Below the pieces are notes generated by a model that was not told where the DNA came from, searched no databases, and saw nothing but the letters and a program-made list of their open reading frames with translations. From Humitalea rosea (GTDB lineage Bacteria; Pseudomonadota; Alphaproteobacteria; Acetobacterales; Acetobacteraceae): 64,000 nucleotides of DNA. The translations under genes were made by a program, and so were the position numbers. The stretch covers positions 1 to 64,000 of the forward strand of contig NZ_QKYU01000018.1 in NCBI RefSeq assembly GCF_003253705.1. Reading direction: 5' to 3'. Shown here piece by piece: positions 28,691 to 40,477 of this stretch (its first letter is position 1; every line of letters starts with the position of its first letter).

Positions 28691-29374
28691 GTGCTGCGCG
28701 ACGGATTGCCGGAACTGCCGAGCCTCTTCACCCCGATCCCCTTGCGGGAAGCGGGGGATGCGATGGCGCGCGCGATCGCGATGGCGCCCGGCCATGGCGC
28801 CGGAACCCTGGCCTGGGTGCGGGCGATGTCGCGGATCGAGGCGGCGGTGGTGCTGGAGCCAGAACAGCCGCTGGGTGCCGCGCGGCTGGTGCTGTTCGCG
28901 GCCATCTCGGCCCTGGCCGATGCCGTGGTGGCGCTGGGTCCGCCCGAGATCCCGGTCTCGCTGCGCTGGCCCGCGACCCTGATTGTGAATGGGGGCGAGG
29001 TCGGGCTGGCGCGGCTTGCCTCCCCGCCCGGTGCTGCGGCCGATGTGCCGCCGGACTGGCTGGTAGTCGGGGTCGAGGCCCGCTTCGTCAACGCGCCCGG
29101 CCTGGAGCCCGGCTTTGCCCCCACCCGCAGCAGCCTGGAGGCCGAGGGCTGGGACGAGACCGATCCCGCCGAGATCACCGCCGCCTGGGCGCGGCATCTG
29201 ATGGCGGGGCTGGCCGAATGGGAGCGGGACGGGCCGCAGCGGGTCGCCGAGCGCTACCTCGCTCGTTTGGAACACGACCCGGAGACCGAGGGCGCCCGCC
29301 GCGCGCTCGACACCGGGACCGCTGAACTGCTCTGGGAGCGGGATGGCGCGCGCCACCGCAGGGCCTGGGTATGA
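28691..29374 (+). CDS. Biotin/lipoate ligase-fold protein (DUF4444 type) lacking active-site residues
   Basis: A 227-residue protein like the biotin/lipoate A/B ligase-family members of FDH clusters. Compared with the BirA fold, the GRGRRGR loop is replaced by GHGAGTLAW (34-42), KWPND by RWPAT (92-96), and the reactive-site lysine of the RKLAG segment by glutamate in GGEVGLA (101-107). It therefore probably does not adenylate biotin or lipoate and may be a binding or scaffold protein. GTG at 28691 is chosen because GGGAGGG lies just upstream. It overlaps the next gene by four bases and starts the FDH accessory chain. Confidence 0.8.
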   Translation: MLRDGLPELPSLFTPIPLREAGDAMARAIAMAPGHGAGTLAWVRAMSRIEAAVVLEPEQPLGAARLVLFAAISALADAVVALGPPEIPVSLRWPATLIVNGGEVGLARLASPPGAAADVPPDWLVVGVEARFVNAPGLEPGFAPTRSSLEAEGWDETDPAEITAAWARHLMAGLAEWERDGPQRVAERYLARLEHDPETEGARRALDTGTAELLWERDGARHRRAWV

Positions 29375-29910
29375 GCCGGCTGCTGCCGCGCACCTTGCGG
29401 CTCGACCCCTCCGATTCGGTGGTGTTCGAGCATGCGGCCGCACCCGGCGAATGGGCGGTCGCCGGCGGCTTCGCCTTCTGGGACGAGGACCCGGCGAGCA
29501 TGACCGGAAAGCGCCGCCAGGCATTCCGCTCCGGGTTTTTGGGATTGGGCAGCTTCGGCTGGTCCACGCTGGTCGAGGTGGCGCCCGTGACCGAGGCCGA
29601 GGCCGAGGCGGCCTTGGAGGCGCTGGCCGGGCATATCCTCACCGCCTATGGCGCCCCCGATGCGGCCACGGCGCGTGCCGCGGCGGCGGAGGAGGTCGCC
29701 TTCGCCGCCTCCCTTTGCGCCGGCCATGAGCCCGGCACCGTGCTGGCCCTGGCCCGGACCATCGAGGACGGGGCCCAGCGCGAGGCCTTCCGCACCCTGC
29801 ACAAACGCTCCGCCCCGCGCGGCGACTTCGGCGCGCTGCCGGTCTTCGGCATCGTCGAGGTGACCGAGGATGAAACGCCGCTCGACATGTCGGACCTGAT
29901 GCCGCGATGA
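29371..29910 (+). CDS. DUF6505-like FDH-cluster accessory protein
   Basis: A 179-residue protein of unknown role. It begins MSRLLPRTLRLDPSDSVVFE, passes through WAVAGGFAFWDEDP and GKRRQAFRSGFLGLGSFGWS, and ends with DFGALPVFGIVEVTEDE. These features match, from memory, a DUF6505-like family found only next to FDH accessory genes. It has no signal peptide and no membrane segment, so it should be cytoplasmic. Four-base overlaps with both neighbours place it in a tightly coupled operon. No catalytic motif is evident. Confidence 0.75.
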   Translation: MSRLLPRTLRLDPSDSVVFEHAAAPGEWAVAGGFAFWDEDPASMTGKRRQAFRSGFLGLGSFGWSTLVEVAPVTEAEAEAALEALAGHILTAYGAPDAATARAAAAEEVAFAASLCAGHEPGTVLALARTIEDGAQREAFRTLHKRSAPRGDFGALPVFGIVEVTEDETPLDMSDLMPR

Positions 29911-30938
29911 GCCTCACGACCTTCCTGCCCGCGCCCGGCGAGTTCTGGCTCGCCTCCGGCCATGCCCTGTGCGATCGCACGCCGGAGGGGTTGCTGGTCG
30001 CGACCCCGGACCTGTGGCGCGCCTTCCTGGCCAGGCCCGAGCTGCTGCCGCCGGAGGAGGCCTGCGACGCGGAACGGGCGCTGCATGCGCGGATGATGGA
30101 GGACCCCCTCGGCACGATCGAGACCGGCGCTTTGGCCGACCCGGATGCCGCCGAGAATTGGCAGGTCTTCAGGGGGTTCCGTGACCGGGTGATGGCGCAG
30201 CCGACCTTGGAGGCCGCCTGGTGCGCGCTCTATCGCGGGGGTGTCGCGGGGGTGCCACCGCTGTTCCTGCAGATGCTGACCCATCTCGTCACCCGCGCCG
30301 CGATGGATGGGGTGGGCGACCCCTATGCGCTGCGCGCCGCCGAATGCCTGTTCCGCCCGCAGCGCGCCGCCATCACCCAGGGCGCGACCTTGCTCGCGGA
30401 TGAGGAAGTGCTGGCCAGCCGCGCCGCGGATGCCGATCTCGGCCCGCTCGGGCGATTGCTGACCGAGGCGGGGGCGACCCCGCGCGAGGCGGAGTTCGAC
30501 GTGCTGAACGATGTCGGTGGCCCGCATTACGCGCCGCGGTCGGATGCGCATGATTTCGCGCTGGACATTGCCGAGGACCGCCCCGGCCAGCATGGGCTGG
30601 CCCGGGCGCTGGAACGCTTCTGCGCGCATGTTCTTGGCGTGCGGGCAAAAATCCGCCCGGTGCCGGTGATCGAGGACCGCAACTGGTCCTGGCATGTCGG
30701 GCTGGATGTCGAGGCGATGGCGATCGCCAATGACCTCTGGCACGGCAAGAAGGTCGCGCAGGCGCGTCTGGCGCGCATCCTGTGGCTGGGCGTGCTGGAA
30801 TTCGAGGATGCCTCGCAGGCGGTGGCCAGGCTGCGCGGCAAGCCGGTGTATGTGGCGCTGGCCATGGATGCCTCCCAGGTGGTGCGGATGAAGCCCCAGA
30901 ACCTGCTGACCGGCCTGCCGCTGGCGCCGCCGTCATGA
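29907..30938 (+). CDS. DUF6352-like FDH-cluster accessory protein
   Basis: A 343-residue cytoplasmic protein of unknown function. It opens with FWLASGHALCDRTPEGLLV and continues LARPELLPPEEACDAERALH, which fits, from memory, the DUF6352 family. The C-terminal part has ending blocks RNWSWHVGLDVEAMAIANDL and WLGVLEFEDASQAVARL. The family occurs in the same FDH gene neighbourhoods, suggesting a role in maturation or insertion of cofactor, but no enzyme motif is seen. It overlaps the preceding and following genes by four bases each. Confidence 0.75.
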   Translation: MSLTTFLPAPGEFWLASGHALCDRTPEGLLVATPDLWRAFLARPELLPPEEACDAERALHARMMEDPLGTIETGALADPDAAENWQVFRGFRDRVMAQPTLEAAWCALYRGGVAGVPPLFLQMLTHLVTRAAMDGVGDPYALRAAECLFRPQRAAITQGATLLADEEVLASRAADADLGPLGRLLTEAGATPREAEFDVLNDVGGPHYAPRSDAHDFALDIAEDRPGQHGLARALERFCAHVLGVRAKIRPVPVIEDRNWSWHVGLDVEAMAIANDLWHGKKVAQARLARILWLGVLEFEDASQAVARLRGKPVYVALAMDASQVVRMKPQNLLTGLPLAPPS

Positions 30939-31438
30939 TCGACCACCCCGACGCGCTGCGGATTCCCCTGGGCGTGCTGGTCGAGCGCCGGCCGGGCGTC
31001 ACCAAATGGGCCGATGAGGTCTGGCGCGTGGTCGAGGTGCTGGACGACCCGCCCGACATCCCCGCCTGGACCCTGCTGCGGGAGAACGAGGGCCGCAGCC
31101 TGTTCTTCGCCGGGGTGTCCGAGGCGGTGCTGCACCCGACCGACACCGACAATTTCAAGCACAACATCGACGCCGCCTCGCCCAGCGCCTGGGTGGTGCT
31201 GCGTGCCGCCCCGACGCCACCGGGGCTGGTCGTGCAACTCGTTACCGTCGATGCCGGGGAGGCCGAGAGCCTGGCCTGCGCCGGTGACGACCTGCTGGAG
31301 CAGGTGCCGATGCCGCCCGGGCTGCTGAACGCGGTCCGCGCCTATGTCGTGCAGCACCATCGCGAACGCGGCTTCTGGAAGCGCCGGCGCGATGGCGGCG
31401 GCGACTGGCGCCAGAAGCGCGAGGAGGCGGACGAGTGA
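30935..31438 (+). CDS. DUF3305 protein
   Basis: A 167-residue protein recognisable as DUF3305 by IPLGVLVERRPGVTKWADEV near the N-terminus and LYL-like REN..RSLFFAGVSEAVLHP. The end is basic (RERGFWKRRRDGGGDW). Function is unknown; it nearly always accompanies DUF3306 and Cys-type FDH genes. The ATG at 30935 overlaps the previous stop (ATGA), which excludes the longer reading; the stop again overlaps the DUF3306 start. Confidence 0.85.
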   Translation: MIDHPDALRIPLGVLVERRPGVTKWADEVWRVVEVLDDPPDIPAWTLLRENEGRSLFFAGVSEAVLHPTDTDNFKHNIDAASPSAWVVLRAAPTPPGLVVQLVTVDAGEAESLACAGDDLLEQVPMPPGLLNAVRAYVVQHHRERGFWKRRRDGGGDWRQKREEADE

Positions 31439-32145
31439 CCTCCGACCCCGAAGGCTTCCTCTCCCGCTGGTCGCGCCGCAAGCGCGGCGGCGCGCTGCCG
31501 GCCGAGGATGTGGCGCCGGTGGAGGTCCCGCCGGTGGAGGAGGAGACGCTGCCGTTTCCCGCCACCGTCACGCCGATCGCGGCGGAGGTGGCGTCACCCG
31601 AGCCGGAACCGGCCCCGTCGCCCGCCCTGCCTCCGCCGGAGTTGCCGTCCATCGACAGCCTGGTCGCCGAGAGCGACATCTCGGCCTTCCTCCGCCCGGG
31701 CGTTCCCTCAGGGCTCAGGCATGCGGCGATGCGGCGGATGTGGTCGCTGGACACCGCGATCCGGGACTTCATCGGCCCGGCGGATTACGCCTGGGACTAC
31801 AATGCGGTGGACGGCGTGCCCGGCGGCACGACCTCGCTCGTGACCAATGATCTGCGCAGCATGCTGGCCCAGGCGATCGGCCGGACCGAGGTGCAGCTCG
31901 ATGCCGAGGATGCGGCTGCGCAAGGGGACGACTCGCCACTGGCCGAGCCCTCCCTGCTGCCCCAGGCCCCGGTGGAGTACCTGGCCGGGGCGGTGCAGCC
32001 CGAACAGGAGGCGGACATCCCCGCCTTCATCCCGCCCGAGATCATCGCCGAGGCCCGCCCCCAGCTTGCTTTGTTTTCCCCCGCTGCACCCGTGCCGGAG
32101 ACGCCGAATCCGCGCCGGCGGCATGGCGGCGCGCTGCCCGTGTAG
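31435..32145 (+). CDS. DUF3306 protein
   Basis: A 236-residue protein. The N-terminal EGFLSRWSRRKR and the central LRHAAMRRMWSLDTAIRDF with DYAWDYNA are the DUF3306 signature. The segments between these (residues 35-75 and after 130) are proline-, glutamate- and alanine-rich and look disordered. The C-terminus ends RRRHGGALPV. Function is unknown; it may act as a flexible adaptor for FDH assembly. Starts with GTG in a GTGA overlap with DUF3305. Confidence 0.85.
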   Translation: MTSDPEGFLSRWSRRKRGGALPAEDVAPVEVPPVEEETLPFPATVTPIAAEVASPEPEPAPSPALPPPELPSIDSLVAESDISAFLRPGVPSGLRHAAMRRMWSLDTAIRDFIGPADYAWDYNAVDGVPGGTTSLVTNDLRSMLAQAIGRTEVQLDAEDAAAQGDDSPLAEPSLLPQAPVEYLAGAVQPEQEADIPAFIPPEIIAEARPQLALFSPAAPVPETPNPRRRHGGALPV

Positions 32146-32154
32146 GGGGTACAG

Positions 32155-32171
32155 TTGCGAGCCGCTCGCAA
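32155..32171. promoter_or_regulatory. Operator-like inverted repeat upstream of torD/FDH genes
   Basis: TTGCGAG and CTCGCAA form perfect 7-bp arms around three bases, followed by TAAAA, in the 124-base gap before the chaperone gene. A dimeric regulator site is the likeliest reading; the distance to the candidate -35 (about 24 bases) suits upstream activation. A weak terminator for the accessory genes is the alternative. Confidence 0.45.
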
Positions 32172-32194
32172 TAAAAGCCTGACATTCCAAGTTC

Positions 32195-32223
32195 TTGCAC
32201 TTCGCCAGACAGCATGCACATAT
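32195..32223 (+). promoter_or_regulatory. Candidate promoter before torD and the FDH structural genes
   Basis: TTGCAC at 32195-32200 is followed after 17 bases by ACATAT in a locally AT-richer stretch. It would give the chaperone and FDH structural genes a start separate from the accessory genes. The -10 match is poor. Confidence 0.3.
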
Positions 32224-32269
32224 CGTTGATCAAACTGTAGATTGACGTAGGGAGAGGCATCGGTCCGAC

Positions 32270-32872
32270 ATGGGCGAGTCAGCCAAAAGCAACGGTATGG
32301 CCGAGGCGGGGGACGAAGGCCGGGCACGGCTGTTCGCCCTGCTCGGGCGCCTATGCGTCGCTGCCCCGGATGCCGGGTTGCTGACCGCGCTCCGCGGCCT
32401 TGAGGGCGATGCCACCCCGATCGGGCAGGCCGTGGCCGCCCTGGCGCGTGCCGCCGCCGCGACCGACCCGGACCGCAGCAGCCGCGAATATTTCGACCTC
32501 TTCATCGGCGTCGGCCGCGGCGAGGTCCTGCCCTTCGGCTCCTATTACATCACCGGTTTCCTGCATGACCGGCCGCTGGCCGATCTGCGCGCCGACCTGC
32601 GTCGCTTCGGGCTGGAACGCGCCGTCGGCGTCGCCGAACCCGAGGATCATCTGGGCTTCCTCTGCGAAACCTATGCTGGGCTGCTGGCCGGAGAATTCCC
32701 CGGGGGCGCGCTTGCCGCCGAACGGATCTTCGCGCGGCACATGGCGCCCTGGGTCGGGCGCTGCTTCGCCGACATCGAACGTGCCGAAGTGGCGCGCTTT
32801 TACCGTGCCGTGGGGGCCCTCGGGCGCACGGCGATCGAGATCGAACAGGCAGCGGCAGCGCTGCCGGCATGA
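32270..32872 (+). CDS. TorD/DmsD-family chaperone for molybdoenzyme maturation
   Basis: A 200-residue all-helical protein of the TorD family, which binds Tat signal peptides and holds apo-molybdoenzymes in the cytoplasm until cofactor is inserted. The family pattern is seen in EYFDLFIGVGRGEVLPFGSY, PEDHLGFLCETYAGLLAGEF and the histidine-containing HMAPWVGRCFADIE. It lies directly upstream of the small Tat protein and the FDH alpha gene, its likely client. Confidence 0.88.
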   Translation: MGESAKSNGMAEAGDEGRARLFALLGRLCVAAPDAGLLTALRGLEGDATPIGQAVAALARAAAATDPDRSSREYFDLFIGVGRGEVLPFGSYYITGFLHDRPLADLRADLRRFGLERAVGVAEPEDHLGFLCETYAGLLAGEFPGGALAAERIFARHMAPWVGRCFADIERAEVARFYRAVGALGRTAIEIEQAAAALPA

Positions 32873-32884
32873 GGAACCTTCACC

Positions 32885-33121
32885 ATGGCCGATGACACGA
32901 CCTCCGAACGGCGCGGCTTCCTCAAGACCCTTGGGATTGGCGCGGCCGCGGCCGCGAGCACTGCCGCGGCGGCCCAGGCCGCCAACCTCCCGGGCTATGA
33001 TCGCGCCGACGCGGTGTCCGCCGGCGTGCCGGTCGCCAAGGAAAACCGGGACGACCGGCTGAAGGCCCGGTATCGCGAGACCGAGCACGTCGCGACCTAT
33101 TATCGCACCAACCGCTACTGA
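32885..33121 (+). CDS. Small Tat-signal protein of the formate dehydrogenase region
   Basis: A 78-residue protein with a Tat-like signal, ERRGFLKTLGIGAAAAAS, then a short charged tail ending ATYYRTNRY. It matches the family described as formate dehydrogenase region Tat target (TIGR02811 type). The mature part is only about 45 residues. It may accompany the FDH alpha subunit through the Tat system or help its assembly; no activity is known. It follows the TorD-like gene by 12 bases and precedes FDH alpha by ten. Confidence 0.88.
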   Translation: MADDTTSERRGFLKTLGIGAAAAASTAAAAQAANLPGYDRADAVSAGVPVAKENRDDRLKARYRETEHVATYYRTNRY

Positions 33122-33131
33122 GGCCGGACCC

Positions 33132-36083
33132 ATGCTGATCAAACGCTCCGATCGCACCGCTGCCCGGCAGCGCCTCGCGAATGCCTATGAGGGCCTGTCC
33201 TCCGGCGGGCTCGATCGCCGCTCCTTCCTCAAGCAGGCCGGCGTCGCCGGCGGCGTGCTGGCCGGCCTCGGCGCCATCCCGCTCTCCACCGTGCGTCAGG
33301 CCCATGCCGGGCCGACCAATTTCGCGCTGCCGATCACGCGGGTGAAGAACATCTGCACCCATTGCTCGGTGGGCTGCACGGTGATCGCCGAAGTGCAGAA
33401 CGGCGTCTGGGTCGGGCAGGAGCCCGCCTACGAAAGCCCGATCAACCGCGGCACCCATTGCGCCAAGGGCGCCTCGGTCCGCGAACTGGTCCATGGCGAC
33501 CGCCGCATCAAATACCCGATGAAGCTGGTCGGCGGGCAGTGGCAGCGCATGAGCTGGGACGCGGCGCTGGCCGAGGTCGGCGACAAGCTGATGGCGATCC
33601 GCCAGAAGAGCGGGCCGGACAGCGTGTTCTGGCTCGGCAGCGCCAAGTTCAGCAATGAGGGTGCCTATCTCTATCGCAAGATGGCGGCGTTCTGGGGGAC
33701 CAATTCGGTCGATCACCAGGCGCGCATCTGCCATTCGACCACTGTCGCGGGTGTGGCCAACACCTGGGGCTATGGCGCGATGACGAACTCCTACAACGAC
33801 ATCCGCAATGCCAAGACCATGATCATCATGGGCGGCAATCCGGCGGAAGCGCATCCGGTGTCCTTGCAGCATCTGCTCGCGGGCAAGGAGCAGCAGAACG
33901 CCAACATGATCGTCATCGACCCGCGGTTCACGCGGACGGCGGCGCATGCGACCGAATTCGTGCGGATCCGGCCGGGCACCGACATCCCCATCATCTGGGG
34001 CCTGCTCTACCACATCTTCGCCAATGGCTGGGAAGACAAGGAGTTCATCAACCAGCGGGTCTACGGCATGGATGACATCCGTGCCGAGACCGCCAAATGG
34101 ACCCCGGCCGAGGTCGAGCGCGTCGCCGGCGTGCCCGAGGCGCAGATGAAGAGTGTCGCGCAGACCTTCGCGACCCAGAAGCCTTCGACGCTCATCTGGT
34201 GCATGGGTGCCACGCAGAAGACCGTCGGCACCGCGAATGTGCGCGCCTTCTGCATCCTGCTGCTCGCCACCGGCAATGTCGGCGCGGCGGGGACGGGTGC
34301 CAACATCTTCCGCGGCCATTGCAATGTGCAGGGGGCGACAGACTTCGGGCTCGATGTCACTTCGCTGCCCGGCTACTACGGGCTGGACGCCAATGCCTGG
34401 CGGCACTGGTCGCGCGTCTGGGATGTGACCTACGAAAGCATGGTCGCGCGCTTCGACAGCCCGGCGATGATGGAGATGCCGGGCATCCCGACCACGCGGT
34501 ATTTCGATGCGGTGCAGATGCCGGGCCTCGGCGCCCGCCCGGCCGGCAGCGAGAACTATGTGCAGCAGCGGGATTCGCTGAAGGGGATGGTGGTCTTCGG
34601 CCATGGCGGCAACACCGTCACGCGCATGCCCGAAGCGGTGAAGGGGCTGGAGGCGCTGGATCTGCTGGTCGTCGCCGACCCGCATCCGACGACCTTCGCC
34701 GCCCTCTCGAACCGGCGCGACAACACCTATCTGCTGCCGATCTGCTCGCAGTTCGAAACCTCAGGCAGCCGCACCGCCTCCAACCGTTCGCTCCAATGGG
34801 GCGAGAAGGTCGTGGAGCCGGTCTTCGAATCCAAGAGCGACTATGAGGCGATGTACCGCCTCTCCGCCGCCATCGACGCGGCCGCTGAGAAGCGCAGCAT
34901 GACCTTCCGCATGCAGGCGGAGGTGTTCAAGCTGTTCGAGATCAAGAACAACGCGCCGACCTCCGAAAGCATCCTGCGCGAGATCAACCGCGGCTGCTGG
35001 AGCACGGGCTACACTGGCCAGTCGCCGGAGCGCCTGCGCCAGCACATGGCGAACCAGGACAAGTTCGACCTGGTCACCCTGCGCGGCGCCGCAGGCTCCG
35101 AGGTCGCGAACGAGGTCTATGGCCTGCCCTGGCCCTGCTGGGGCACGCCCGAGCAGAAGCACCCCGGCACGCATCTGCTCTACAACACCAGCCTGCATGT
35201 GAAGGATGGCGGCGGCACCTTCCGCGCCCGCTTCGGCGTCGAACGGAACGGCGAGACGCTGCTGGCCCAGGGCTCCTGGACCAAGGGCTCGGACATCGAG
35301 GATGGCTACCCCGAATTCACCACCGCGGTGCTCCAGCGCCTTGGCTGGTTCGATGATCTGACCGCCGAGGAGAAGGCGCAGATCGCGCGCCAGGGCGGCA
35401 GCGCCTCCTGGGCGACCGATCTTTCGGGCGGCGTCACCCGCGTCGCGCTGGAACACGGCTGCATCCCCTATGGCAACGGCAAGGCCCGGGCGAATGCCTG
35501 GAACCTGCCCGACCCGGTGCCGGTGCATCGCGAGCCGATCTACACCCCGCGCAACGACCTGATCGCGCAATACCCGACGCTGCCCGACCGGCGCGGCTTC
35601 CGCCTGCCGCATCTGGGGCAGTCGGTGCAGGCGCGCAGCCCGCAGGTCGCGGCCAACTTCCCGTTGATCCTCACCTCCGGCCGCCTGGTCGAATATGAGG
35701 GCGGCGGCGAGGAGACCCGGTCCAACCGCTGGCTGGCCGAGTTGCAGCAGGACATGTTCATCGAGATCAGCACCGCCGACGCCGCATCCCGCAACATCAA
35801 GGACGGTGCCTGGGTGCAGGTTGCCGGGCCGGAAATGCCGCAGGGGCGCTGGATCCGCGTGAAGGCGCTGGTCACCGACCGTGTCGGCACCGGGGTCGCC
35901 TTCATGCCCTTCCACTTCGCCGGCTACTTCATGGGGGAGGACCAGCGGAGCAAGTATCCGCCGGGCACCGATCCCATCGTGCTCGGCGAAAGTGCGAATA
36001 CGGTCACGACCTATGGCTATGACCCGGTGACCTTCATGCAGGAAACCAAGGTCACGATCTGCCAAATCCGCGCTGCGGTCTGA
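33132..36083 (+). CDS. Formate dehydrogenase catalytic (alpha) subunit, Cys type, Tat-exported
   Basis: A 983-residue Mo/W-bis-MGD oxidoreductase. The N-terminus has a Tat signal (GLDRRSFLKQAGVAGG, Arg29-Arg30). The 4Fe-4S site is CTHCSVGC plus HCAKG (Cys75, 78, 82 and 110). The metal ligand is Cys200 in QARICHSTTV, followed by the catalytic His, so the enzyme uses cysteine where E. coli FDH-N uses selenocysteine. The molybdopterin-dinucleotide binding domain forms the C-terminus (about residue 835 onward). It oxidises formate to CO2 in the periplasm and passes electrons to the beta and gamma subunits encoded next. Confidence 0.95.
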   Translation: MLIKRSDRTAARQRLANAYEGLSSGGLDRRSFLKQAGVAGGVLAGLGAIPLSTVRQAHAGPTNFALPITRVKNICTHCSVGCTVIAEVQNGVWVGQEPAYESPINRGTHCAKGASVRELVHGDRRIKYPMKLVGGQWQRMSWDAALAEVGDKLMAIRQKSGPDSVFWLGSAKFSNEGAYLYRKMAAFWGTNSVDHQARICHSTTVAGVANTWGYGAMTNSYNDIRNAKTMIIMGGNPAEAHPVSLQHLLAGKEQQNANMIVIDPRFTRTAAHATEFVRIRPGTDIPIIWGLLYHIFANGWEDKEFINQRVYGMDDIRAETAKWTPAEVERVAGVPEAQMKSVAQTFATQKPSTLIWCMGATQKTVGTANVRAFCILLLATGNVGAAGTGANIFRGHCNVQGATDFGLDVTSLPGYYGLDANAWRHWSRVWDVTYESMVARFDSPAMMEMPGIPTTRYFDAVQMPGLGARPAGSENYVQQRDSLKGMVVFGHGGNTVTRMPEAVKGLEALDLLVVADPHPTTFAALSNRRDNTYLLPICSQFETSGSRTASNRSLQWGEKVVEPVFESKSDYEAMYRLSAAIDAAAEKRSMTFRMQAEVFKLFEIKNNAPTSESILREINRGCWSTGYTGQSPERLRQHMANQDKFDLVTLRGAAGSEVANEVYGLPWPCWGTPEQKHPGTHLLYNTSLHVKDGGGTFRARFGVERNGETLLAQGSWTKGSDIEDGYPEFTTAVLQRLGWFDDLTAEEKAQIARQGGSASWATDLSGGVTRVALEHGCIPYGNGKARANAWNLPDPVPVHREPIYTPRNDLIAQYPTLPDRRGFRLPHLGQSVQARSPQVAANFPLILTSGRLVEYEGGGEETRSNRWLAELQQDMFIEISTADAASRNIKDGAWVQVAGPEMPQGRWIRVKALVTDRVGTGVAFMPFHFAGYFMGEDQRSKYPPGTDPIVLGESANTVTTYGYDPVTFMQETKVTICQIRAAV

Positions 36084-36097
36084 GGGAGCTTACCAAC

Positions 36098-36694
36098 ATG
36101 GCTCGCATGAAATTCCTCTGCGACGCGGATCGCTGCATCGAATGCAACGCCTGCGTCACCGCCTGCAAGAACGAGAACGAGGTGCCCTGGGGCATCAACC
36201 GCCGCCGCGTCGTCACCATCAATGATGGCCGGCCGGGGGAGCGTTCGATCTCGATGGCCTGCATGCATTGCACCGACGCGCCCTGTGCGGCGGTCTGCCC
36301 GACCTCGTGCTTCTACACGACCGCGGATGCGATCGTGCTGCACGACAAGGATCTGTGCATCGGCTGCGGCTACTGCTTCTACGCCTGCCCATTCGGCGCG
36401 CCGCAGTATCCGCGCGTCGGCAACTTCGGTGGCCGTGGCAAGATGGACAAATGCACCTACTGCGCCGGCGGCCCGCAGGCCGACAATAGCCAGGCGGAAT
36501 ACATCCAGTACGGCGCCAACCGTATCGCCGAGGGCAAGCTGCCGCTCTGCGCCGAGATGTGCTCGACCAAGGCGTTGCTCGCCGGCGATGGCGACATCAT
36601 CGCCAGCATCTACCGCGAACGGGTGCAGAAGCGCGGCTATGGCTCCGGGGCCTGGGGGTGGCGCACCGCCTACCGCCAGGATGTGAGCGTCTGA
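36098..36694 (+). CDS. Formate dehydrogenase iron-sulfur (beta) subunit
   Basis: A 198-residue protein with four 4Fe-4S motifs: CIECNACVTACKNE, CMHCTDAPCAAVCP, CIGCGYCFYACPFG, and CTYC paired with the later CAEMC. It carries electrons from the alpha subunit to the cytochrome. There is no C-terminal membrane anchor, unlike E. coli FdnH, so it is the shorter fdh3B-like form. It has no signal of its own and would be exported together with the alpha subunit. Its stop overlaps the gamma start by one base. Confidence 0.94.
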   Translation: MARMKFLCDADRCIECNACVTACKNENEVPWGINRRRVVTINDGRPGERSISMACMHCTDAPCAAVCPTSCFYTTADAIVLHDKDLCIGCGYCFYACPFGAPQYPRVGNFGGRGKMDKCTYCAGGPQADNSQAEYIQYGANRIAEGKLPLCAEMCSTKALLAGDGDIIASIYRERVQKRGYGSGAWGWRTAYRQDVSV

Positions 36695-37719
36695 TGCGCG
36701 CGCCCCTCAGGTTCGTCCTTGCCGCGATGCTGATGCTCGCGGCCGGACCCGTGCTGGTGGTCCCCGTGCTGGTGCTCCCCGTGCTGGCCCAGCCGGTGAC
36801 CGATGCCGCGCGCGGCAACATCAGCGCCTCGGAGATGGAACTCCAGGCGACCTTGCGTGGGGACATCATCCGCGGCCGCATCACCATCCCCGACAGCCGC
36901 GCCGCCAATCTCATCCAGCCCGAAGGGCGCGAGTGGCGGGAATTCCACAACGTCACCCTGGGCTGGATTGGCGGGATCGCCGTGCTCGGCATGCTGGCGC
37001 TGCTGGTGATCTTCTACCTCGCGCGCGGGAAGATCCGGATGGAGGGCGGGCCGTCCGGCCGCACCATCCAGCGCTTCAACTGGTTCGAGCGCGCCAACCA
37101 TTGGATGACGGCCTCGACCTTCATCATCCTGGCCCTGTCGGGGCTGAACATCACCTTCGGCCGCTACCTGCTGCTGCCGCTGTTCGGCCCCGAGATCTTC
37201 GCCGAGGCGACCCAGCTGGGGAAGATCGCGCATAACTATCTGTCCTTCCCCTTCGCGCTCGGCATCGTCGTGATGTTCCTGCTGTGGATACGGGACAACA
37301 TCCCGAACGCGCTGGATGTCGCCTGGCTGCGGGCCGGCGGCGGCATCATCGGCCATGGGCATCCCCCGGCCGACCGCTTCAACGCCGGCCAGAAGATGAT
37401 CTTCTGGATCACGGTGCTGGGCGGCGGGCTGGTCGCGGCATCGGGCTATTTGCTGATCTTCCCGTTTTTCTTCACCGGGATGCAGGGCATGCAACTGGCG
37501 CTCATCGTTCATGGCATCCTGGCGGTGCTGATGATCGCGGCGATGCTCGGGCACATCTACATCGGCACCATCGGCATGGAAGGCGCCTTCGATGCGATGG
37601 GCACCGGGCAGGTGGACTACAATTGGGCCCGGGCGCATCACTCCCTCTGGGTCGAGAAGGAAGTGGTCCGTGCCCGCAGCACCATTGACGGCACGGCCAA
37701 GCCTGCCGGCGCCGATTGA
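36694..37719 (+). CDS. Formate dehydrogenase cytochrome b (gamma) subunit
   Basis: A 341-residue membrane protein. After a signal segment there is a hydrophilic region, then a first helix near residues 90-112, and a four-helix cytochrome b561-like domain beginning at RFNWFERANHWMTA with a heme-ligand histidine. Further histidines are in ILALSG..., KIAHNYLSF and LIVHGILAV. It anchors the enzyme and should transfer electrons to quinone. The start at 36694 overlaps the beta stop; a longer reading is rejected. The signal peptide contains three 15-bp repeats. Confidence 0.92.
   Translation: MRAPLRFVLAAMLMLAAGPVLVVPVLVLPVLAQPVTDAARGNISASEMELQATLRGDIIRGRITIPDSRAANLIQPEGREWREFHNVTLGWIGGIAVLGMLALLVIFYLARGKIRMEGGPSGRTIQRFNWFERANHWMTASTFIILALSGLNITFGRYLLLPLFGPEIFAEATQLGKIAHNYLSFPFALGIVVMFLLWIRDNIPNALDVAWLRAGGGIIGHGHPPADRFNAGQKMIFWITVLGGGLVAASGYLLIFPFFFTGMQGMQLALIVHGILAVLMIAAMLGHIYIGTIGMEGAFDAMGTGQVDYNWARAHHSLWVEKEVVRARSTIDGTAKPAGAD
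36748..36792 (+). repeat. Three 15-bp tandem repeats in the FDH gamma signal peptide
   Basis: Units at 36748-36762, 36763-36777 and 36778-36792 each begin CCCGTGCTGG and encode PVLVV, PVLVL and PVLAQ. They form the hydrophobic core and cleavage region of the signal peptide. Loss or gain of a unit would stay in frame. Confidence 0.85.
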
Positions 37720-37748: not shown

Positions 37749-37770
37749 TCCTTCCCACGAAGGCAGAGTG

Positions 37771-38271
37771 ATGCGCCTGATCGGCCTTGCCGGCTGGAGC
37801 GGGGCGGGCAAGACCACGCTCCTCTCCCGCCTTATTCCCGAACTCGGCCGGCAAGGGGTGGGTGTCTCCACCCTCAAGCATGCCCACCACGCCTTTGACG
37901 TGGACCAGCCCGGCAAGGACAGCCACATCCACCGGCAGGCGGGCGCGCGGCAGGTACTGGTGTCCTCGGTCAACCGCTGGGCGCTGATGACCGAGCATCG
38001 CGGCGCGCCGGAGCCCTCGGTCGATAGCCTGCTGGCGCGTCTGGACCCGGTCGATCTGGTCATCATCGAGGGCTTCAAGCGCGGCGCCCATCCGAAGATC
38101 GAGGTGTTCCGGGCCGCCAATGGCAAGCCCTGGCAGTATCCCGACGACCCGATGATCCGCGCCATCGCGGCCGATACCAGGCCCGAGGTGGGACTGCCCT
38201 TCGCCGAACTTGATGATGTCGCGGCCATTGCCGCACTGGTTCTGGAGCATGCGGTGCCATGGCCCAGCTGA
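37771..38271 (+). CDS. mobB: Molybdopterin-guanine dinucleotide biosynthesis protein B
   Basis: A 166-residue GTP-binding protein with Walker A GWSGAGKTTLLSRLIP at the N-terminus, STLKHAHHAFDVDQPGKDS and IIEGFKRGAHPKIEVFR, all typical of MobB. It assists MobA in making the bis-MGD cofactor needed by the FDH alpha subunit. The ATG at 37771 is chosen because GAAGG lies seven bases before; a GTG directly upstream is the alternative. It overlaps moeA by 13 bases. Confidence 0.93.
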   Translation: MRLIGLAGWSGAGKTTLLSRLIPELGRQGVGVSTLKHAHHAFDVDQPGKDSHIHRQAGARQVLVSSVNRWALMTEHRGAPEPSVDSLLARLDPVDLVIIEGFKRGAHPKIEVFRAANGKPWQYPDDPMIRAIAADTRPEVGLPFAELDDVAAIAALVLEHAVPWPS

Positions 38272-39506
38272 CCGATGACTGCTTCGCCTTCGGCGGCCCG
38301 CTGCTGACGGTGGACCAGGCGGCGGCGCTGATCGCCGAGCGCGTGCCGCCCTTGGCAGAGGCCGAAAGCCTGCCGCTGGCCGAGGCCCTGGGCCGCGTGC
38401 TGGCAGTGTCCCTGGTCGCGCCCAACCCGCTGCCCCCCTTCGGCAACAGCGCCGTCGATGGCTATGCCTTCGCCCATGCCGCCTTGATCCCAGGCCAGCC
38501 GACGCGCCTGCCGGTGGTGGCCCGCATCGCGGCAGGCCAGGTTGCCGAGGCGCTGCCGCCCGGGACCGCCGCACGCGTCTTCACCGGGGCGCCGATGCCG
38601 CCCGGCGCCGATACCGTCGTGATGCAGGAGGATGCCGCCCTCAACGGCACGGGCGTGCTGGTGCCGCCTGGGCTGAAGCCCGGCGCCAATGCCCGCGCCG
38701 CCGGCGAGGATGTGCCGCTCGGTGCCACGGCCCTTCTCGCCGGGCGGCGGCTCGGCCCGGCCGAGGTTGCCCTGGCGGCCGCCCTCGGCTTCGCGCGCCT
38801 GCCGGTGACGCGCAGGGTGCGGGTCGGGGTCTTCTCCACCGGCGATGAGCTGGCCGAACCGGGGACGGTGCTTGGCCCCGCCAGCACCTATGACAGCAAC
38901 CGATTTATGCTGTTGGCGCTGCTGGCGCGGCTGCCGGTCGAGGCGCAGGACCTCGGCATCCTGCCCGACCGCGCCGAGGCGACGGTCGCCGCCCTGACCG
39001 CCGCGGCTGGCGCCTTCGACCTGCTGCTGACCACCGGCGGCGTCAGCGCCGGGGAGGAAGACCACGTCCGCGCCGCGATCGAGGGCGCAGGCACGCTCGT
39101 CTTCTGGCGCCTCGCCGTGAAGCCCGGCCGCCCCGCCGCCATGGGCGTGGTGGCCGGCACGCCTGTCGTTGGGCTGCCGGGCAATCCGGTCGCGGCCATC
39201 GTCACCTTCCTGCATCTGGCGCGGCCTTTGGTCCTGCGCCTCGCGGCGGCGGCGCCCAGGCCGCTGCTGCGGCTGCCGGCGGTGGCGGATTTCGCCTATC
39301 GCAAGAAGGAAGGGCGGCGCGAATACGTGCGCGTCGCGTTGCGCGAGGATGGCGCGCGGCTCATTGCCAGCCGCTTCGCGCGCGACGGGGCGGGGCTGCT
39401 GACCTCGCTCACCGAATCGGATGGCTTTGCCGAACTGCCGGAGGAGGCGACCGCCGTCGCCCCGGGCGATGTCCTGAAGATCCTGCCCTTCGCCGCATTG
39501 TTCTGA
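38259..39506 (+). CDS. moeA: Molybdopterin molybdotransferase
   Basis: A 415-residue MoeA that inserts molybdate into adenylylated molybdopterin. Signatures: PPFGNSAVDGYAFAH near residue 65, RVFTGAPMPPGADTVVMQED, RVGVFSTGDELAEPG, TTGGVSAGEEDHV and GLPGNPVAAIVTF. It supplies molybdenum cofactor for the adjacent FDH. The 13-base overlap with mobB suggests coupled translation. Confidence 0.95.
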   Translation: MAQLTDDCFAFGGPLLTVDQAAALIAERVPPLAEAESLPLAEALGRVLAVSLVAPNPLPPFGNSAVDGYAFAHAALIPGQPTRLPVVARIAAGQVAEALPPGTAARVFTGAPMPPGADTVVMQEDAALNGTGVLVPPGLKPGANARAAGEDVPLGATALLAGRRLGPAEVALAAALGFARLPVTRRVRVGVFSTGDELAEPGTVLGPASTYDSNRFMLLALLARLPVEAQDLGILPDRAEATVAALTAAAGAFDLLLTTGGVSAGEEDHVRAAIEGAGTLVFWRLAVKPGRPAAMGVVAGTPVVGLPGNPVAAIVTFLHLARPLVLRLAAAAPRPLLRLPAVADFAYRKKEGRREYVRVALREDGARLIASRFARDGAGLLTSLTESDGFAELPEEATAVAPGDVLKILPFAALF

Positions 39507-39517
39507 GGCTGCCGCCC

Positions 39518-40477
39518 ATGTTCACCGCCGATGACCACGCCGCCGCCCGCGCCATCGTCGCGCGCGCGATGCCGCCGACACCGCAATACGACTGGCCGTT
39601 GCTGGCCTCGCGCCTGGGTGTCGAGGTCTGGGTCAAGCATGAGAACCACACCCCCACCGGCGCCTTCAAGGTGCGGGGCGGGCTGGTCTATCTGGATCGC
39701 CTGGTGCGCGAACGGCCGCAGGTCGCGGGGCTGATTTCCGCCACGCGCGGCAACCATGGCCAGAGCCTCGCCTACGCCGGTGCCCGCCATGGCGTGCCGG
39801 TGACAATCGTGGTGCCGCGCGGCAATTCCGTCGAGAAGAATGCGGCCATGCAGGCCCAGGGCGCGCGGCTGATCGAGCATGGCGAGGATTTCGAGGCCGC
39901 GCGCCTGGAAGCCGGGCGGCTGGCCGAGCAAGGCGGGCTGGAGATGGTCCCCTCCTTCCATCGCGACCTGGTGCTCGGGGTTTCGACCTATGCGACGGAG
40001 CTGCTGACCGCGGTGCCGGATCTGCACACGCTCTATGTCCCGATCGGCCAGGGCTCGGGCTGCTGCGGCTGCATCGCGGCGCGGGACCATCTGGGGTTGA
40101 AGACCGAGATCGTCGGGGTCCAATCCGTGGGCGCGCCCGCCTATGCGCTGTCCCTGGCCGCCGGGCGGGTCGTCTCCACCGCCGCCGCCGATACGCTGGC
40201 CGATGGCATGGCCACGCGGGTGCCGGACCCGGATGCCTTCGAGATGATCCGCAAGGGCGTGGCCCGCATCGTCCAGGTGGCGGATGCCGAGGTCGCGACC
40301 GCCATCCGCACCTATTGGACCGATACCCACAACCTTGCCGAGGGCGCCGGCGCCGCCCCGCTGGCGGCGCTGATGCAGGAGCGTGCGGCGATGGCCGGGC
40401 GCCGCGTCGGCGTCATCCTCTGCGGCGGCAATATCGACCTCGCGCTGTTCCGCGACTGGGTGATGGCCTCAGGGTAG
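39518..40477 (+). CDS. PLP-dependent serine/threonine dehydratase-like enzyme
   Basis: A 319-residue fold-type II PLP enzyme. The PLP lysine is in TPTGAFKVRGGL (Lys near residue 53), and SATRGNHGQSLAYAG is the asparagine loop; a glycine-rich phosphate loop is seen as GQGSGCCGCIAAR. It probably deaminates threonine or serine to the 2-oxo acid. No ACT regulatory domain follows, so it is of the short, catabolic type. It starts 11 bases after moeA but is functionally unrelated, and overlaps the convergent acyl-CoA ligase by nine bases. Confidence 0.88.
   Translation: MFTADDHAAARAIVARAMPPTPQYDWPLLASRLGVEVWVKHENHTPTGAFKVRGGLVYLDRLVRERPQVAGLISATRGNHGQSLAYAGARHGVPVTIVVPRGNSVEKNAAMQAQGARLIEHGEDFEAARLEAGRLAEQGGLEMVPSFHRDLVLGVSTYATELLTAVPDLHTLYVPIGQGSGCCGCIAARDHLGLKTEIVGVQSVGAPAYALSLAAGRVVSTAAADTLADGMATRVPDPDAFEMIRKGVARIVQVADAEVATAIRTYWTDTHNLAEGAGAAPLAALMQERAAMAGRRVGVILCGGNIDLALFRDWVMASG

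Follow-up and report, generated by a model that had tools for sequence, protein, structure and literature searches.

FdhE (PF04216), which matures the Escherichia coli formate dehydrogenases (FDHs) FDH-N and FDH-O, is a cytoplasmic protein needed only for FDHs that are exported by twin-arginine translocation (Tat); according to a 2023 review, periplasmic FDHs and fdhE are systematically associated, and the fdhE product is a likely proofreader before export (PMC10609526). A second known arrangement is that of the DmsD-fdhGHI operons, reported in 2015, in which genes for DUF3305 and DUF3306 lie upstream of the fdh genes together with a TorD/DmsD-type chaperone (PMC4464133). For the incorporation of tungsten (W), a specific MoeA1-MobB-MobA-FdhD pathway has been established in Methylorubrum extorquens for the cytosolic enzyme MeFDH1, with MoeA1, MobB and FdhD being essential for the tungsten form, W-MeFDH1; that paper makes no mention of FDH3, TorD or FdhE (PMC13197769). 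Here we describe a 64,000-nucleotide stretch of the Humitalea rosea genome (contig NZ_QKYU01000018.1, positions 1 to 64,000; hereafter the window) in which five accessory genes, coding for a biotin protein ligase (BPL)/LplA/LipB-like protein, DUF6505, DUF6352, DUF3305 and DUF3306, precede a TorD-like chaperone and a three-subunit FDH of the FDH3 type. We propose, with a probability of roughly 0.7, that these five genes, together with a divergently transcribed iron-sulfur (Fe-S) protein and TorD, form a maturation and assembly module for this Tat-exported, Cys-type enzyme, which probably carries tungsten bound to bis-molybdopterin guanine dinucleotide (W-bis-MGD).

The enzyme was assigned to the FDH3 type based on a beta subunit that scores above its curated cut-off, a cysteine and a Tat signal in the alpha subunit, and a cytochrome b gamma subunit (Table 1). 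The first-pass annotation, made from the window alone, had already called it a Cys-type FDH, and the ARICHS motif is indeed present in the window alpha subunit and in all 22 alpha subunits compared. The window alpha subunit scores 440 bits against the formate dehydrogenase alpha equivalog TIGR01591 (cut-off 666) and, judged by this profile, is a relative outside that equivalog.

The distribution of the accessory families was determined by searching each of them in the same 200 Pseudomonadota genomes. BPL-like proteins were counted only when matching PF16917 with more than 90 bits, the next match having 58 bits. FDH3 beta was found above its curated cut-off in 22 of the 200 genomes, spanning ten families. 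DUF3305 and DUF3306 were each detected in 22 genomes as well, and their genome lists are identical to that of FDH3 beta, with none outside. DUF6505 was present in 15 genomes, strong BPL-like matches in the identical 15, and DUF6352 in 9, all within the 22. The proposed tie between the five families and a Cys-type FDH was therefore borne out, their distribution being nested wholly inside that of FDH3; the families commonly occurring without FDH genes, which would have spoken against such a tie, was looked for by this phylogenetic profiling and did not occur. Six genome families (f1, f2, f8, f12, f26 and f34) each contain both positive and negative genomes, and since FDH3 and DUF3305/DUF3306 vary jointly within them, the match does not come from shared ancestry alone. 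Also, neither DUF3305 nor DUF3306 occurs in the 4 genomes with TupA or the 58 with FdhD that lack FDH3, thus these two families track FDH3 and not tungsten or FdhD generally. A plasmid collection gave a similar picture, with FDH3 beta on 96 plasmids, DUF3305 on 88, DUF6505 on 77 and DUF6352 on 10, and with closely matching host genera. The five genes are almost certainly dedicated to FDH3; the distribution shows this dependence, and the mechanism proposed below is inferred.

The view that the five proteins constitute one machine found no support, because two of them are obligate, two are paired but variable, and one varies alone. The module instead consists of a near-constant core (the Fe-S protein, DUF3305, DUF3306 and TorD) and an optional layer (the BPL-like protein with DUF6505, and DUF6352). 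We compared the best 80 of at least 592 DUF6505 relatives in our collection at the level of the locus. In nearly all 80 loci, as far as the contig reaches, the Fe-S gene points away from a BPL-DUF6505-DUF6352-DUF3305-DUF3306-TorD-FDH series, and the five genes are syntenic with TorD, MobB, MoeA, MobA, FdhD and TupABC. Methylobacterium bullatum is among the species that carry the module. Best tblastn matches suggested the order BPL-DUF6352-DUF6505 in L186 and L228, and placed DUF3306-TorD-FDH on the opposite side of the Fe-S gene in L181, L199 and L233. As annotated at first, the five consecutive genes in the window overlap by four nucleotides (nt) at each of the four junctions (ATGA, ATGA, ATGA and GTGA). 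The same overlap was found in 60/75, 65/78, 56/78 and 64/72 relatives for junctions 1 to 4 (up to 80 related named loci), indicating that the chain is a unit conserved beyond chance, which is probably translationally coupled.

Linkage to FDH3 can be broken while the dependence holds. Genome G016 encodes DUF6505, DUF6352 and the BPL-like protein at scattered sites remote from FDH3, and G019 likewise has a DUF6352 gene that is unlinked to it. Four of the 80 best loci (L158, L161, L164 and L168) contain the accessory operon without intact FDH genes adjacent, and L158, L161 and L168 suggested an accessory operon that is independent of FDH. This was ruled out, as FDH3 is located at another site in each of these three genomes (3/3), which are the ones searched. 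In L168 (13406-13896) and L164 (13602-13838) natural deletions have removed the FDH structural genes from the interval between TorD and MobB, and the accessory operon is intact. L168 retains only FdhB/FdhC remnants at the locus, and its genome holds a full FDH3 elsewhere plus a decayed copy with a stop.

As first noted, neither fdhD nor fdhE is located in the window, which had led to the suggestion that the five proteins replace or supplement both. For FdhD a replacement was rejected, since every one of the 22 FDH3 genomes carries it; in H. rosea it is encoded elsewhere, adjoining MobA (G000:C4:154930-155625). Overall, 80 of the 200 genomes carry FdhD, 58 of these without FDH3. The part of the suggestion that concerns FdhE fared better. 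FdhE occurs in 24 of the 200 genomes and in none of the 22 with FDH3, it was not found anywhere in the H. rosea genome, and none of the five proteins matches the FdhE family. Zero overlap between FdhE and FDH3 among the 80 FdhD-bearing genomes has a chance of about 1e-4, uncorrected for kinship. The absence of FdhE from all 22 genomes makes a substitute plausible; FDH3 thus forms a broad exception to the association of FdhE with periplasmic FDHs, and TorD with DUF3305 and DUF3306 are the constant candidates for its job. That DUF3305 and DUF3306 carry out the FdhE-like step is possible, with odds somewhat short of even. The two systems would be alike in their setting, a cytoplasmic step before the export of a Tat-dependent FDH. 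They differ in that FdhE has CxxC motifs whereas the five proteins have none, the only CxxC-rich protein of the module being the Fe-S protein.

Several observations connect FDH3 to tungsten. A profile search detected a TupA-type substrate-binding protein in 22/22 FDH3 genomes versus 4/178 others, and the FDH3 clusters of several relatives include TupABC-like tungstate importers. The TupA of the H. rosea genome is encoded at G000:C18:82244-83035 (L247), with TupABC-like genes on the same contig, approximately 45 kb downstream of FDH3. In M. extorquens, R291 and A312 of MoeA1 favour tungsten, whereas canonical molybdenum (Mo)-type enzymes have K and S at these positions (PMC13197769). Like MoeA1, the window MoeA has R at position 291 and A at position 312 (K and S in E. 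coli MoeA), and by these residues is predicted to prefer tungstate in vivo. When the MoeA genes in FDH3 neighbourhoods and related loci were scanned together, 36 had R/A and 7 K/S; among five plasmid MoeA genes used as a comparison, three had K/S, one K/A and one R/A, the latter from Tritonibacter and linked to FdhD-MobA-MobB. A plasmid of Sinorhizobium meliloti combines a TupABC-like importer, the Fe-S protein, the BPL-like protein, DUF6505, DUF6352, DUF3305, DUF3306, TorD, FDH3, MoeA, MobA and FdhD in a single island. The locus resembles the M. extorquens pathway in having MobB-MoeA after FDH3, the R291/A312 pair, and TupABC in the genome, and it is quite likely, going by these genes and residues, that FDH3 contains tungsten as W-bis-MGD. 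A plasmid of Alloyangia pacifica (L252, 499-7077 and 20536-21912) carries a cytosolic-type FDH (alpha and an NAD(P)H-dependent subunit) together with a sensor kinase next to its FDH3 cluster, and a sigma-54-dependent regulator on the other side.

The strict TupA association and the W-type MoeA-MobB could also mean that the five proteins act in the synthesis of the tungsten cofactor itself, for example in W insertion or in selecting W over Mo, and not on the FDH3 apoenzyme. The NCBIfam model NF011058, a MobA-DUF3305 fusion, would fit this as well; it matches the window DUF3305 at profile positions 220-363 and ties this protein to guanylylation in cofactor synthesis. An actual fusion was not found among the loci compared, so that it is known from the NCBIfam model alone. 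However, genome G135 contains TupABC, FdhD, MobA, MobB and a W-type MoeA, and lacks FDH3 and all the DUFs, indicating that the DUFs follow the FDH3 enzyme and not tungsten generally. Moreover, none of the five families is among the factors named as essential for W-MeFDH1 in the available part of the M. extorquens study (PMC13197769). We consider this explanation quite improbable.

The divergent Fe-S gene, located upstream of the BPL-like gene and approximately 90 nt from its GTG start, was missing from the first-pass list and belongs to the same module. It is conserved in 21/22 FDH3 loci and in 74/80 named loci; three of the five chain genes are less constant. The protein contains many invariant cysteines, and among solved structures it is matched best by the ferredoxin domains of Hdr, Fwd and similar redox complexes. 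This near universality, the cysteines and these matches would suit a different function, in which the accessory proteins serve FDH3 in the cytoplasm as electron-transfer or structural partners, the Fe-S protein being the redox member, for instance by passing electrons from formate oxidation to a cytoplasmic acceptor or by assembling a supercomplex. However, the alpha subunit is exported by Tat and the five proteins were found to be free of Tat motifs, signal-like hydrophobic N-termini and, in a simple hydropathy scan, transmembrane-like stretches, which makes contact with the mature periplasmic enzyme unlikely. The five proteins also lack cofactor motifs, and their neighbours are cofactor-synthesis and chaperone genes. 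Such a partnership is therefore improbable, and the likely function lies in maturation or assembly, not in catalysis or electron transfer. In such a maturation module the C-terminal CxxC pairs of the Fe-S protein might, speculatively, be compared to the rubredoxin-like motifs of FdhE. In five Rhodobacterales-like loci (L138, L140, L143, L145 and L252) genes for an Mrp/NBP35 ATPase and a small DUF6494-type protein are present between the Fe-S gene and the BPL-like/DUF6505 pair, which hints at Fe-S delivery.

The five proteins themselves provide further clues. The BPL-like protein belongs to the BPL/LplA/LipB fold family: it is homologous to BirA (E about 1e-5), and Protein Data Bank (PDB) entry 3bfm, described as a 'biotin protein ligase-like protein of unknown function', is a full-length relative (298 bits). 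This homology, the strict pairing of the BPL-like protein with DUF6505 (15/15), and a lysine of DUF6505, K47, that is conserved in about 86% of sequences, might suggest that the BPL-like protein works as a ligase or transferase and attaches lipoate, biotin or another acyl group to DUF6505 or an FDH subunit, with help from the other proteins. However, the position of the BirA catalytic lysine K183 is occupied by E in the window protein and by V, R, L or S in other members, the family alignment contains neither a GRGRRGR-like adenylate loop nor an invariant lysine, and K47 of DUF6505 is itself not invariant. An active lipoate or biotin ligase was therefore rejected, the catalytic lysine and adenylate loop being gone in every aligned member, and the modification scheme as a whole is very improbable. 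Thus, the protein shares the fold of BirA, and the loss of catalytic residues makes ligation unlikely; its sequence is best read as that of a binding protein that has no catalytic function and is paired with DUF6505.

A role in sulfuration, one of the functions first suggested, is unlikely too. None of the five proteins contains a CxxC motif, and alignments showed no conserved cysteine in DUF3305, DUF3306 or the BPL-like family, the only conserved ones being C116 of DUF6505 (97%) and C53 of DUF6352 (100%). The possibility that DUF6352 is a hidden TorD-like chaperone gained no support, as its confident model (predicted local distance difference test, pLDDT, 92.6) gave no convincing structural match (Foldseek best E=0.54; best VIA Z 2.9, with a root mean square deviation of 3.0 over 60 residues); a relation may nonetheless exist. 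Judged from this model, DUF6352 is a candidate new fold with no convincing solved counterpart. DUF6505 (pLDDT 84.4) had no convincing PDB match either (best E=0.43, best Z 2.3), and profiles of DUF6505, DUF6352 and DUF3305 found nothing significant among PDB sequences.

Taken together, the most likely role of the module is control of apoenzyme assembly and export around the insertion of W-bis-MGD, where it would stand in for FdhE and work alongside FdhD. TupABC would import tungstate, the W-type MoeA and MobB would insert the tungsten, MobA would make bis-MGD, and FdhD would sulfurate and deliver the cofactor. TorD would hold the Tat signal of the alpha subunit, and DUF3305 and DUF3306 would act on cytoplasmic apo-FdhAB at the step that FdhE takes for E. 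coli FDH-N and FDH-O, possibly as quality control or by retaining the subunits until cofactor insertion is complete. The BPL-like protein, DUF6505 and DUF6352 may form a second, dispensable layer. A more specific version, in which DUF3305/DUF3306 and TorD control apoenzyme export in an FdhE-independent, tungsten-specialised route, and the pseudo-biotin-ligase with DUF6505 and DUF6352 serves as a carrier of, or platform for, W-bis-MGD or apo-FdhA, is tentative and rather unlikely to hold. Thus, what had first been observed at the locus was confirmed, and of its interpretation a function in maturation is probable, the single machine, sulfuration and the replacement of FdhD having been dropped.

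Several points weigh against the proposed role. Co-occurrence indicates dependence and not mechanism, so that regulators or electron-transfer partners are conceivable, and we found no biochemical or genetic data on any of the five proteins. On the tree of FdhA, the FDH alpha subunit, the BPL/DUF6505 pattern requires 2 changes and that of DUF6352 3 changes, and with so few changes the independent evidence for these three families is modest. The absence of FdhE may merely reflect genomes with one type of periplasmic FDH. As to tungsten, three TupA members match NF041772 over their full length with 190-219 bits, below its cut-off of 400, and the tungsten taken up could also be used by a cytosolic FDH1-type enzyme, such as the one adjacent to FDH3 in Alloyangia.

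The adjacency of DUF3305 and DUF3306 to fdh genes has been published. The available part of the 2015 paper gives neighbourhood frequencies rather than genome-wide co-occurrence, makes no mention of the BPL-like protein, DUF6505 or DUF6352, and calls DUF3305 and DUF3306 putative membrane proteins, whereas hydropathy revealed no clear transmembrane stretch in the window proteins (PMC4464133). New relative to the literature searched, which contained nothing on DUF6505, DUF6352 or 3bfm, are the strict profile, the exclusion of FdhE, the association with TupA, and a place for DUF6505, DUF6352 and the 3bfm family. An FDH class across ten families runs without FdhE, and its constant companion proteins can now be named. 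This gives a likely context to the solved structure 3bfm and a defined prediction for DUF6505, DUF6352, DUF3305 and DUF3306. There is demand for W-dependent FDHs in CO2 reduction. The title of a recent paper names maturation of their alpha subunit in a foreign host as the bottleneck (PMC13396061); the module offers a short list of candidate missing factors.

Table 1. Genes of the FDH3 locus in the window, with coordinates and supporting profile matches or motifs.
Feature	Position	Strand	Remarks
Fe-S protein, 671 amino acids	26584..28599	-	Pfam Fer4; ferredoxin-type [4Fe-4S] regions, N-terminal CTCE, C-terminal CxxC...CxxC knuckle
BPL/LplA/LipB-like protein	28691..29374	+	PF16917 E=4e-49, 167 bits (cut-off 27); GTG start
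DUF6505	29371..29910	+	PF20115 E=8e-60
DUF6352	29907..30938	+	PF19879 E=3e-56
DUF3305	30935..31438	+	PF11749 E=2e-31; obligate FDH3 partner
DUF3306	31435..32145	+	PF11748 E=1e-21; obligate FDH3 partner
TorD/DmsD-like chaperone	32270..32872	+	PF02613 97 bits, above cut-off 22.2
Small twin-arginine protein	32885..33121	+	RRGFL at residue 9; TIGR02811 42.7 bits, below cut-off 48.45
FDH alpha	33132..36083	+	Tat signal RRSFL; active-site Cys (ARICHS)
FDH3 beta, Fe-S subunit	36098..36694	+	NF038355 335 bits, curated cut-off 240
FDH gamma, cytochrome b subunit	36691..37719	+	TIGR01583 157 bits, cut-off 115.85
MobB	37768..38271	+	TIGR00176 140.7 bits, cut-off 76.2
MoeA	38259..39506	+	Tungsten-type pocket residues R291, A312

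The gene order leading from the chain into TorD, the small Tat protein and the FDH subunits is as first described; the overlap coupling does not extend into TorD, as 124 nt separate it from DUF3306 (32145 versus 32270). A motif scan of this gap found no sigma-70 promoter or terminator motif, and its predicted RNA fold is ordinary (z = +1.06). The gap does contain a perfect inverted repeat, TTGCGAG-CCG-CTCGCAA (32153-32169), which may be an operator or belong to a second promoter region. Directly 3' of MoeA, at 39518-40477, lies a threonine dehydratase-type gene (PRK06110) that is probably unrelated.

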